Below are positions 26,195-30,014 of a stretch of DNA of 36,103 nucleotides, piece after piece (position 1 is the stretch's first letter; every line of letters begins with the position of its first letter). The stretch comes from Candidatus Microgenomatus sp. (GTDB lineage Bacteria > Patescibacteriota > Microgenomatia > UBA8517). The stretch is from the NCBI GenBank assembly GCA_020724555.1, contig DYGT01000005.1, forward strand, positions 3,539 through 39,641, given 5' to 3'. The translations under genes and the position numbers were made by a program. A model generated the notes under the pieces. The model made no database searches. It was not told where the DNA came from and saw only the letters and a program-made list of their open reading frames with translations.

Positions 26195-27238
26195 ATGACC
26201 GAACGAGATTTCAGAATTACCAGAAGACAATTTGGAAAAACTGCTATGGCGGTAGCAGGAGAACTCGCTGCAAAAGCTAGCGGCCTGGCATTCCCCCATC
26301 AAGAAAAAATATTATCTCCAGAAAATAAAATATATCCCGGAGACGTCTTCCATGGAGCTTTTAACGGAGACGGTACATTTATAATAATGGCGTATGGCTC
26401 GCCTACTGGGTGGGGGTCTATTGGCTACAACCTACAAGGAGTAGATAAAGGAGGATTACAAAATACCATTGACACTTTGGATTATTTATCCGGGTTTGCT
26501 CCCACCTGGACAAAACGAGTGCACCGGCACGCCGATGTAATAGGTATCAGTTTTAAAAAAATAAGCGAAACTTCAGAATCGCAAGCTGCCGTCCATTCCG
26601 AATCTTTGGCATTAATTTACGACGTTATAAATGGAAAAGCCGGTACCAATACCACAGCCTCTTTAAGCATAAGAGCCGGCCGCGATGTATCCTTGGAAAG
26701 ACTTTTTGACTTAATCCAAAAGCTCTACCAAGGCAAATTTGTTTACAACGAAAGCGACGTCATCCCCAAGGAAATTTTTACTAGACACGGCATTATGCTG
26801 GGATTAGACTTGGAAGAGATGGTAAATCCGGATGAATTTGGAAACGCCTATTACCCCACCGGAGTTCCAGCAGATCAATTACACGAAATCGTGAGCTGGG
26901 TTAAAAACTTTATGATTAACCGTGGTTTTAGGCATTATTCAACACTTTTATACGAACAGGGCGTTGAGCCGCATATTCCGGATAATCCTCGCGGTTTGAA
27001 ATGGAATGATAAAATTAAAATAGCACACGCCGGTTTTCAAACTACAGCAAGTTCCTCGGCGGAAAACCGCATTAAACTACTTCAAGCAATTGAGAGGCAA
27101 AAAGAAGTTTGGCGAATGAATGGAATTGGCGGTATGATATATACCCATGCTGCTCTCTCACCCGATATTCGAAACGCTTTAACAGACCAAGACATCAAAT
27201 TATACGCAGAAAACCTACAAGCATTAGCTGCACAATAA
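26195..27238 (+). CDS. Hypothetical secreted protein with twin-arginine-like signal (TRRQFGKTA)
   Basis: Complete ORF; N-terminal RR motif followed by moderately hydrophobic segment. Confidence 0.65.
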   Translation: MTERDFRITRRQFGKTAMAVAGELAAKASGLAFPHQEKILSPENKIYPGDVFHGAFNGDGTFIIMAYGSPTGWGSIGYNLQGVDKGGLQNTIDTLDYLSGFAPTWTKRVHRHADVIGISFKKISETSESQAAVHSESLALIYDVINGKAGTNTTASLSIRAGRDVSLERLFDLIQKLYQGKFVYNESDVIPKEIFTRHGIMLGLDLEEMVNPDEFGNAYYPTGVPADQLHEIVSWVKNFMINRGFRHYSTLLYEQGVEPHIPDNPRGLKWNDKIKIAHAGFQTTASSSAENRIKLLQAIERQKEVWRMNGIGGMIYTHAALSPDIRNALTDQDIKLYAENLQALAAQ

Positions 27239-27318
27239 TAAATTCAGATTTTGACAGGTACCCCTTAAAGTAGACACAGATTCTAAAATGAGTCTTACTG
27301 ATTAGGGGGTGAAACGAA

Positions 27319-27567
27319 TTGGCAGGGATATCAAAAGAGGTTAAAGAGGAAATCGTATCAAAGGTCAAAAGTGGGGCAAAAGTTGTGGATGTGTCTAAGG
27401 ATTATGGAGTTTCTACCAAGACCATTTATTATTGGCTCAGAGGTAAAGCTAACAGTGAAGCCAGTGTAATGGAGGTGAGGAGACTCAGGAAAGAGAATGA
27501 AGAGCTAAAGGCCATTGTTGGAGCTCTTACTATGGACTTAACAAAGCTAAAAAAAGAAGCCAGATGA
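27319..27567 (+). CDS. IS3-family transposase OrfA (HTH + leucine zipper)
   Basis: KVVDVSKDYGVSTKTIYYWLRGKA...EVRRLRKENEELKAIVGALTMDLTKLKKEAR. Confidence 0.85.
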   Translation: MAGISKEVKEEIVSKVKSGAKVVDVSKDYGVSTKTIYYWLRGKANSEASVMEVRRLRKENEELKAIVGALTMDLTKLKKEAR

Positions 27568-27583
27568 CTTAAAAAGCCTTGTT

Positions 27584-27955
27584 GTGAGGTTACCATCCTT
27601 CAACAAGAAAAGGATGTGCTTGGCAGTTGGTGTATCAAGGGCTGTTATTTACAAGACTTCAAATTTACTTACCACAAAAGATGAACTTTTGAGAGTCCAT
27701 GTCTTATCAGTGCTATCAGCCCACCCAAGCTATAACCACAGGAGGATTGTACTCAAGCTTAAAATTGGCAAGAAAAGTAGCCCGTGGAAAAATGCATATC
27801 AGGAAAGTTTCTACAATAATTTCAAGACAGATCTGGGACTTGAGTTTGAGAGATTTAATACCCCTGGAGAGCTTATTGAGGCCATTCATCAAACCATTAA
27901 CACTACAACCACAAAAGAATACACACCACCCTAAAGATACCACCAGCAGTTTTCA
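27584..27955 (+). pseudogene. IS3-family transposase OrfB remnant: N-terminal part fused to C-terminal catalytic-E region, then frameshifted
   Basis: VSRAVIYKTS...HPSYNHRRIVLKLKIG joined directly to KKSSPWKNAYQESFYNNFKTDLGLEFERF; C-terminus continues in another frame as HYNHKRIHTTLKIPPAVFKNK. Confidence 0.8.
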
Positions 27956-28006
27956 AAAACAAACACTTGTATTAGAATTCGTGTTTACCAAAAAGGGTAC
28001 TTGACA

Positions 28007-28241
28007 CTCGGTCATACAGCCACGGGTCGAGTTCGTTGCCAGAGAGGTCGACTTTCATCACCCTTCCGTCAACGTAATCGAAGTAGCCGAAGCCACTTCC
28101 GAAACGGTTGCGTGCCTGCTCTGCGGTCATAGCCTCTGCCTTGTACTGCAAGAAGCCCAGCCCTTGAGCGCGAGCGCCATTGTATAGCGCAGCGAACACC
28201 TCAGCCTTGTCCAGTCCTTCCAACGAGATTGCGTCAGACAT
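28007..28241 (-). pseudogene. Phage/plasmid-type small protein of unknown function, 3' end truncated by the IS3 terminus
   Basis: MSDAISLEGLDKAEVFAALYNGARAQGLGFLQYKAEAMTAEQARNRFGSGFGYFDYVDGRVMKVDLSGNELDPWLYDR then IS-encoded residues to stop at 27972; SD AGGAGG upstream; higher GC than surroundings. Confidence 0.65.
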
Positions 28242-28263
28242 GTCATGCCTCCTATGAGAAAAA

Positions 28264-28650
28264 GATCACACTTTCGTGTGGCTAACCGAATGGATAGCTT
28301 CTTGAACACTATTGGTTAATGTCCAAAAAGCTACCCATCCAGCTCGGGAGGCTTGAACTTTCCGTAAACTATTAAAATGCTAAGTAGGTTTTACTTCTTG
28401 GTAAAGCAGAATGTTAAAAGCAATTTTTAACTCTGCTTTATTCAAGAGCTACTATCAGCAACCTACTACTTAATAGCAGAAATCCAGTCAGGAGCTATCC
28501 CGACTTAACGGGAGGATAGACTTCACTCCTAACTAGAGTTCTGCCAACAAAAAAGCGGCTTTAGGTAAAGCTGCCTATCCAAAGCTCATTTTACCCCTTT
28601 TAGTTCAATTTCTTCTAATAATAAATCCTAAAGATTGCTCCTTAGGATAC
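28264..28650 (-). ncRNA. Candidate structured RNA or long structured 5' leader (multiple nested helices)
   Basis: 26-pair stem whose non-Watson-Crick pairs are all G-U only on the minus strand; GAAA-capped hairpin followed by TTTTT; further nested helices at 28369-28476 and 28476-28544. Confidence 0.4.
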
Positions 28651-28708
28651 TTCGTATATTAGCACAAACTATATCAAAAAAATCAATAATTATAGGCTAT
28701 CGTTAAAT

Positions 28709-28834
28709 TTAATCTTCAGGAGAATTGTCAAATTTTATATACCCCTTATCGGCCATCATCTGATACAGGTCTAACTCACTGATTATTAAGTCCCTTACCA
28801 CCAAATCAACAATTTGCCAATAATTGCAAAATCG
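28709..28834 (-). pseudogene. Possible degraded small ORF (…CNYWQIVDLVVRDLIISELDLYQMMADKGYIKFDNSPED*)
   Basis: Open minus-strand reading frame of protein-like composition; no clear start. Confidence 0.3.
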
Positions 28835-28876
28835 GTGAAGTTCTTAAACTCATCAAGGTCAAGCCCAGCAGTAAAA

Positions 28877-29876
28877 ATAGTACCTCATTTGATTGATACC
28901 GACTGCTCTAGTGTAATCACAGACATTTTCACTAAATTCTCAACAGGCGTTGTCAGTAAAAATGAAATCTCAAAAGAACTTAAAAGGCGAAAGGTCAAAA
29001 ATTACAAAGGCAAGATTTTAGCTTTTTCGCAACAAACACTTGATAATATCCTCAACAATATCTACTACACTAGCTACTTAAAGGCTGAAGATGGCAGGAT
29101 TATTAAAGGCCAGCACGAGGTATTATTGACTTGACCCTGTTTCAAAAGTGCCAAAATGTTCTTAAAGAAGAAGCAACAATACTGCCAAAACCAGAAAGCG
29201 AGTACATCCTGATTTTCCTTTACGCAAGTTTGTCAAATGCGGCTTTTTTCATAAACCCTTAACTGCCGCTTGGTCAAATTCCGCTCACTCTGGCAAGTGC
29301 CTCATTATTGGTGCTACAACCCAAACTGTAGCCAATTTAGAAAAACAATTAGGAAAACATATATAGAGAATAGTTTGGTACCTACCTTGTCTCTGTTAAG
29401 CCTTCAGAAGCCTTTATAGAGCGTTTTAGTAAAATTTTTATTAAGAGATACCAAGAAAGAGAAAGTGAAATCAGAGGTGACTACTTAAGGCAATTGGATA
29501 CAATCAAAAAGCTGAAAAAAACAAGCAGTGGGTACTTGAGAAAGGTAAGAAGGGCATTTTACCAGATAATATCCTAAAAGAGGAAATTGAAAAAACAGAA
29601 CTTAACCCTTGCCAAAATGGAGCTAACCGAAATACACGCTGAAGAGTTAGACATCAACGCACTACTAACTTACACTTACGATTTTATTCTAACTGTTGAA
29701 AAAACTTGGTTTGACGCTCAAATTACCTAAAAGTGAGATTGCAGAACCTAATTTTCCCTAAAGGAGTTGAGTTTGCCAATAGTGAATTTTCGAACCATAA
29801 AATTTCCCCTCTTTTTGAGCTAATCGAGGTTTTGGGTACTGAAAAATTAAACTTGGTGACCCTACCGGGATTCGCC
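28877..29876 (+). pseudogene. Large serine recombinase remnant (catalytic domain lost; Recombinase and zinc-ribbon domains frameshifted)
   Basis: VPHLIDTDCSSVITDIFTKFSTGVVSKNEISKELKRRKV...IYYTSYLKAEDGRIIKGQHEVLLT; then in other frames HPDFPLRKFVKCGFFHKPLTAAWSNSAHSGK, PHYWCYNPNCSQFRKTIRKTY, and QNLIFPKGVEFANSEFSNHKISPLFELIEVLGTEKLNLV. Confidence 0.82.
29856..29874. repeat. Partial duplication of tRNA-Glu 3' end (att-like): GTGACCCTACCGGGATTCG vs 29941..29959 GTGACCCCACCGGGATTCG
   Basis: 18/19 identity, direct orientation, located at the 3' end of the recombinase remnant. Confidence 0.75.
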
Positions 29877-29941
29877 ATGCATGACTGCAACACATTATTT
29901 ATGCATTCCTCGAATCCGTGGAAGAACGGACTGCAAGCGAG

Positions 29942-30014
29942 TGACCCCACCGGGATTCGAACCCGGATTACTAGGATGAGAACCTAGCGTCCTAAGCCAT
30001 TAGACGATGGGGCC
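29942..30014 (-). tRNA. tRNA-Glu (anticodon CTC)
   Basis: Minus strand GGCCCCATCGTCTAATGGCTTAGGACGCTAGGTTCTCATCCTAGTAATCCGGGTTCGAATCCCGGTGGGGTCA; cloverleaf complete, CCA not encoded. Confidence 0.95.

Follow-up and report, generated by a model that had tools for sequence, protein, structure and literature searches.

The window, a 36,103-nucleotide stretch of contig DYGT01000005.1 in the 0.9-Mb genome of a Candidatus Microgenomatus bacterium, carries a block packed with inverted repeats on its minus strand, between a tRNA-Glu gene and a small phage-like open reading frame (ORF). From the promoter towards the ORF, and then for the surrounding debris, we assigned the following features, in part by alignment to L072, a homologous locus in a genome of another family (G291).

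28681..28696, minus strand: upstream promoter element and -35 box, CCTATAATTATTGATT (promoter alignment with L072; motif enrichment in the family)
28656-28661, minus strand: -10 box, TAATAT
near 28649, minus strand: predicted RNA start
28624..28649, minus strand: 5′ hairpin UAUCCUAAGGAGCAAUCUUUAGGAU, 10 bp in the fold, kept with changes in L072
28548..28575, minus strand: hairpin GGCAGCUUUACCUAAAGCCGC followed by a U-run (sequence, fold)
28383..28545, minus strand: extra folded domain, comprising hairpin 28479-28543 and coaxial set 28383-28467 (window-L072 alignment)
28369..28380, minus strand: boxA-like element GCAUUUUAAUAG, slightly degenerate (10/11 match to GYWCYTTDAHA, best site in a 50-nt window)
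28358..28368, minus strand: UUUACGGAAAG, counterpart of the conserved UUGCGGAAA (alignment; leader-trailer test)
28347..28352, minus strand: anti-Shine-Dalgarno (anti-SD) GCCUCC, paired as GCCUCC:GGAGGC in the minimum-energy fold
28284..28344, minus strand: P1, a long hairpin of 28 bp in the fold and the most conserved part (covariation in a 22-locus alignment)
28267..28280, minus strand: P2, a small GNRA hairpin, CACAC-GAAA-GUGUG (recount; subset of homologues)
28247..28252, minus strand: Shine-Dalgarno (SD) GGAGGC, start codon 5 nt on (sequence)
27972..28241, minus strand: phage-like ORF of 89 aa (homology until about residue 78, remainder from the insertion)
27252..28006, plus strand: degenerate IS3-like element (terminal inverted repeats 27252-27277 and 27981-28006)
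29856..29874, minus strand: att-like repeat of the tRNA-Glu 3′ end, 18/19 (repeat search; tRNA-Glu at 29941-30014)

The 89-aa ORF resembles proteins of Dulem virus 39, Streptomyces phage Gilgamesh and the megaplasmids of Priestia and Pseudomonas; a search of related loci found none related through this ORF. The IS3-like element (HTH_Tnp_1, E 2.5e-8; a weak rve_3 match, E 0.0012, below the cut-off) cuts the ORF short at its 3′ end, and the window lacks the unit's trailer and terminator. Adjoining the insertion is a 347-aa ORF (26195-27238) that has no Pfam match and an N terminus resembling a twin-arginine signal. Upstream of the window copy, between tRNA and RNA, lies a decayed recombinase of the serine type (28814-29740, plus strand; PF07508, E 3.3e-4, many stops), and the 19-bp repeat of the tRNA-Glu 3′ end occurs at 29856-29874 and 29941-29959, 85 nt apart, as after site-specific integration. 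The first-pass annotation of this DNA had placed an RNA just upstream of the phage-like ORF, on the same strand and amid mobile-element debris, and that position holds. Because the ORF end and trailer are lost, the promoter spacer is long (19 nt, which may weaken the promoter) and the boxA-like element is slightly degenerate, the window copy is probably the relic of a once-active unit.

The inverted-repeat helices described earlier for this block all pair as stated on recounting. The largest, 28284-28309/28319-28344, contains 26 minus-strand pairs (19 Watson-Crick and 7 G.U, none broken); all seven non-Watson-Crick pairs are A.C on the plus strand, confirming that the helix is continuous only as minus-strand RNA. 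Fully paired helices were also counted at 28267-28271/28276-28280 (5/5), 28369-28375/28470-28476 (7/7), 28383-28390/28460-28467 (8/8), 28402-28410/28432-28440 (9/9) and 28413-28419/28425-28431 (7/7). Helix 28486-28494/28526-28534 has eight Watson-Crick pairs and one G.U on the minus strand, and 28495-28502/28509-28519 is weaker, with one non-pair in 8. As had been cautioned for some smaller helices, 28555-28562/28567-28574 favours the plus strand by one wobble (7 Watson-Crick pairs and 1 G.U, on plus only). Folding of 28242-28660 gave -153.4 kcal/mol on the minus strand (z -8.15, 0/100 shuffles) and -115.3 kcal/mol on the plus strand (z -5.23). Both strands beat their shuffles, as any inverted repeat would, yet the minus strand is clearly the more stable, as expected of the structured minus-strand RNA originally proposed.

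A DNA search of relatives gave two matches to 52 nt of the large hairpin, both in a single genome of the class; each lies between promoter and SD of a small gene, and the two genes differ. A covariance model built from three hairpin sequences, that of the window copy and these two, found the element in 21 of 374 class genomes; a second model (R2), built from 22 loci, extended this to 44/374 class genomes and 16/380 genomes across the phylum, each search using a roughly calibrated per-genome E-value of 0.001 at which about 0.4 false genomes are expected. The loci include the Microgenomates groups Gottesmanbacteria, Shapirobacteria and Woesebacteria. Picking homologues with a three-hairpin model favours sequences that fit it; SD, ORF, boxA and promoter nevertheless agree, though none was part of that first model. 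The class is broader than R2, since four loci found by promoter motif alone and missed by the model (L167, L170, L172 and L183) carry the promoter motif, a boxA-like element and an SD with ORF, their P1 being divergent or missing. Two Terriglobia contigs from a pattern scan of genome contigs were rejected as unrelated repeat hairpins without boxA or SD, and a pattern search of viral contigs gave two chance coding matches and then none.

Behind 60 of the 68 loci, an SD and ORF follow at close range, the ORFs being small, unrelated and GC-rich. This context argues against the free-standing non-coding RNA suggested earlier. No Rfam match reached the gathering score in the window or in 20 homologous loci (at E<10 only chance microRNA-type matches and a sub-threshold bglG element appeared), which gives no support to a kinship with GOLLD, ROOL or OLE, and the same sequences held no rRNA match. 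Terminator control likewise gained no support. A subset of homologues has hairpins at the P2 site (mean z -0.9, p 0.001), but because they differ in sequence and are not followed by a U-run (for example in L115, L079, L076, L077 and L078), the AUCUUUUU after CACAC-GAAA-GTGTG in the window is not a conserved terminator. In the library that we searched, no paper describes an RNA of this kind from Patescibacteria. The family, which stands before small accessory genes across these ultrasmall bacteria, is thus previously unlisted in Rfam and in the literature searched; its parts are of known kinds, and their combination and their use by interchangeable genes are new.

Homologues covary strongly in P1, a test that the first-pass annotation had named as able to overturn its reading. 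In the 22-locus alignment, 18 of 25 pairs show two-sided compensatory changes and 92% of hairpin cells form standard pairs; 0/500 shuffles reach these pairing or covariation values, and shifting the partner by one column lowers pairing to 42-49%. Read on the opposite strand, 74.5% of hairpin cells pair, and across the family the cells hold 110 G.U against 14 A.C. The alignment of the window with L072 spans the entire promoter and leader (457 aligned nt, 69% identity), and of its 109 consensus pairs 29 have changed (18 on one side, 11 on both) with 0 broken. From this comparative evidence we conclude that the block is a real structured RNA of the minus strand, and probably a control element.

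From 5′ to 3′, family members comprise a CCTATAAT-TTGACA promoter, one or more variable hairpins, a boxA-like element, UUGCGGAAA, the anti-SD, P1, often a small P2, the SD, the ORF and a trailer. The promoter consensus CCTATA[AG]N0-4TTGACA occurs at 15/33 strong loci against 0.009 expected per locus; genome-wide, CCTATA-TTGA is no commoner than a reversed control, so the motif is specific to leader loci. A GC hairpin with U-run comparable to 28548..28575 also precedes boxA in other members and in rRNA leaders. The extra domain at 28383..28545 is shared with the G291 homologue and is short or absent in most members.

The anti-SD of each locus prefers its own SD over those of other loci by 2.3 kcal/mol (matched -12.2, swapped -9.9 kcal/mol, p 1e-4), and the complementarity goes past the SD core, as for UUAUCUCCUUU with AAAGGAGAUAU in L030. 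This comparison shows the predicted pairing to be locus-specific and supports occlusion of the SD. Such an off-state is also common to riboswitches and RNA thermometers, in which a ligand or temperature sensed through P1 and the junction would free the SD and boxA would be only a helix strand; one cargo gene even encodes a cold-shock domain. P1, however, is a helix of 25 bp with almost no interruption and lacks the irregular conserved core that an aptamer would have; the cargo functions are unrelated, unlike those of a metabolite regulon; and P1 seems too stable to act as a thermometer, although melting of the SD helix by itself is conceivable. We consider sensing of this kind unlikely. Translational riboswitches and ribosomal-protein leaders resemble the family in that a conserved hairpin is set on a junction closed by anti-SD/SD pairing; the family differs in having no known ligand or common gene function and in carrying a boxA and a trailer in addition.

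The boxA-like element has the family consensus UUGCACYUUWAMAA. In 21 loci found by a model that lacked the element, GYWCYTTDAHA is matched perfectly in 16/21 (0.2% of control windows) and at 10/11 or better in 21/21 (2.5% of control windows). These are the letters of boxA in the rRNA leaders of the same genomes, 6/7 of which carry a GYWCYTTDAHA-type boxA when read from sequence. Since boxA itself lies in the leader-trailer helix described below, its conservation might reflect pairing alone. From the boxA letters, together with a NusB gene in 10/10 genomes tested and Rho in 9/10 (over the cut-off in 6), we infer that Nus factors may bind at this site. In suhB, translation is repressed by Nus factors acting at a boxA that likewise lies upstream of the SD in an mRNA leader (PMC5725501). 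Keeping ribosomes off through Nus factors is thus shown for suhB and proposed here; suhB has not been described with a covarying SD-occluding fold, a long hairpin or trailer pairing, and in our family one leader serves many unrelated genes.

The 3′ untranslated region behind the ORF shows complementarity to the boxA/UUGCGGAA strand. Across 58 loci, matched pairs reach -15.9 kcal/mol against -13.2 for swapped pairs (z -7.5), with controls of -12.6 kcal/mol 200 nt further on and -13.5 kcal/mol at the ORF end; the best case, L125, reaches -33.8 kcal/mol. Minimum-free-energy folds of whole transcripts hold the helix in 26/49 loci (8.0 versus 0.5 nt paired). The leader-trailer helix predicted from these folds is shown statistically rather than for each member, standing out in about half of the loci only, and it is absent from the window copy, in which the trailer is gone. 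By analogy, the conserved UUGCGGAAA, which pairs with the trailer in other members, may have a boxC-like role: in Escherichia coli rrn operons boxC comes after boxA and pairs with the trailer as the trailer emerges (PMC10250234), which makes the parallel with pre-rRNA close. The family shares with rRNA operon leaders the succession of GC hairpin, boxA and a strand complementary to a trailer downstream of the gene body. It is unlike them in that the enclosed transcript is an mRNA, which has an SD-occluding fold of its own and a small ORF in place of rRNA, and in that boxA itself joins the helix.

The same observations might mean that P1 serves mainly as a substrate for RNase III and that the leader-trailer helix signals processing or stability, so that mRNA lifetime and not initiation would be set. 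P1 is a near-perfect duplex of 25-28 bp, conserved in sequence and pairing, and the rRNA leader-trailer helix holds an RNase III site (PMC10250234). Such a role does not need the separate, locus-specific complementarity of anti-SD and SD, and we regard it as improbable.

The genes behind the leaders are diverse. Of 60 ORFs scanned against Pfam, most match no family, and no family is seen in more than one member (cation efflux, kinase with DnaJ, Bax1-I, TPM, zinc ribbons, cold shock); these ORFs share no function that would name a signal, and no common metabolic function. ORFs are richer in GC than their flanks (0.49 versus 0.41, p 2.5e-10). Large phages of unrelated hosts hold relatives of 3/5 cargo families tested and none of the other two. 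Some cargo proteins without assigned function turn up at more than one locus, and several (L087, 1656-2396; L077, L079, L084, L049 and L116) have exchangeable modules in common, some of them also present in jumbo phages; L087 joins pieces of L079, L077 and L084.

Presence of the unit varies between close relatives. Within one genus, G310 has nothing between tRNA-Glu and lon, G071 has a leader unit there, and G202 has a different ORF flanked by direct repeats of the tRNA 3′ end; another G202 contig carries tRNA-Glu, a leader and yet another ORF. The G071 and G202 leaders are identical at 267/278 positions, and their ORFs are unrelated. In G202, L199 (G202:C1:22700-24081) is a single-ORF insert of about 700 bp that has tRNA-Glu 3′-end direct repeats on both sides and no leader RNA. 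A tRNA 3′ end lies within 400 nt upstream on the same strand at six loci (five independent sites) against 0.6 expected; this enrichment is confined to same-strand, immediately upstream 3′ ends, as tRNA proximity in general is not enriched. Direct repeats flank 9/59 loci against 1 control, some of them being terminator duplications and not attachment sites. Three repeats were rejected as att sites, that of L101 owing to native tRNA similarity and those of L105 and L132 because they include terminators. A hairpin with U-run behind the ORF is visible by eye in G071, L105, L106 and L132. An intergenic sequence of about 200 bp (L073 query 1050-1266) has dozens of copies throughout G071 and G202. 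Group I introns lie near two cassettes (L077 907-1112, L086 2657-2874), and the L077 intron appears to interrupt a tRNA gene.

The mobile-element debris around the window copy and the direct repeats at some loci could suggest decayed transposon ends or an attC-like folded DNA recombination site in place of an RNA, but strand asymmetry (the excess of G.U over A.C) and covariation already disfavour this very improbable alternative, as do the fixed place between promoter and SD, the SD complementarity, the boxA-like element, the position of P1 inside the unit and not at its ends, and the lack of nearby recombinase genes. A signature-regex search of about 70 loci found an intact recombinase gene, Xer/IntI-like, near one, and beyond it no integron integrase near an array. 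At that locus (L203 7131-10036, G301:C26) two tandem cassettes lie between TTTACATGTA-type sequences in opposite orientation, followed by the tyrosine recombinase and trmD; this may be a dif-like or integron-like site.

Integron gene cassettes are interchangeable single-gene units, a property shared by the family, whose one tandem pair lies beside a tyrosine recombinase; its units differ in having their own promoter and leader and in being usually solitary. Phage morons are single-gene units with their own promoter and terminator. The family displays moron-like traits, including an autonomous promoter, atypical GC and variable presence, and some of its genes are common to large phages; it differs in being chromosomal, with a common structured leader and no instance in viral contigs by pattern. 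The units behave like portable single-gene cassettes.

With a free RNA, a GOLLD, ROOL or OLE relative and a terminator switch unsupported in view of the SD-ORF context, the missing Rfam match and the lack of a conserved U-run, the block is likely to be an SD-occluding, boxA-bearing 5′ mRNA leader of moron-like single-gene cassettes. On this model, RNA polymerase would start from the dedicated promoter and make a leader whose boxA-like element is accessible while nascent and available to a NusB-S10 antitermination complex, as in rRNA. The leader would then fold, the anti-SD pairing with the SD and closing the junction over the 25-28 bp P1, so that ribosomes are kept off. Once polymerase has reached the end of the unit, the boxA/UUGCGGAA strand would pair with the trailer and loop out the ORF, much as pre-16S rRNA is closed by its leader and trailer. 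The Nus complex might let polymerase read through the untranslated message, a logic that is attractive but unproven, and ribosomes would initiate only after the SD helix had been opened by a protein, by RNase III cutting of P1 or by another signal. Translation control by SD occlusion and the pre-rRNA-like outer shell are the best-supported of these steps. Small unrelated accessory genes in variable places, often beside tRNA 3′ ends, would then constitute portable moron-like cassettes.

More tentatively, and as a possibility that we would sooner doubt than assert, Patescibacteria may maintain exchangeable one-gene cassettes defined by an RNA, in which a pre-rRNA-like shell (boxA, leader-trailer helix and SD lock) ensures processive transcription of almost any captured accessory gene and holds translation back until a shared signal, such as contact with a host, arrives. 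Patescibacterial gene regulation has hardly been explored, and a recurrent candidate RNA switch that can be tested and is common to unrelated accessory genes offers a direct handle on it, while the leader also marks a hidden set of mobile genes. To our knowledge, a transcript closed by a leader-trailer helix is otherwise known only for pre-rRNA. If the Nus link is true, boxA-based control, so far a matter of rRNA and a few leaders, would take in a broad class of mRNAs, and an mRNA, too, would be closed by a leader-trailer helix.
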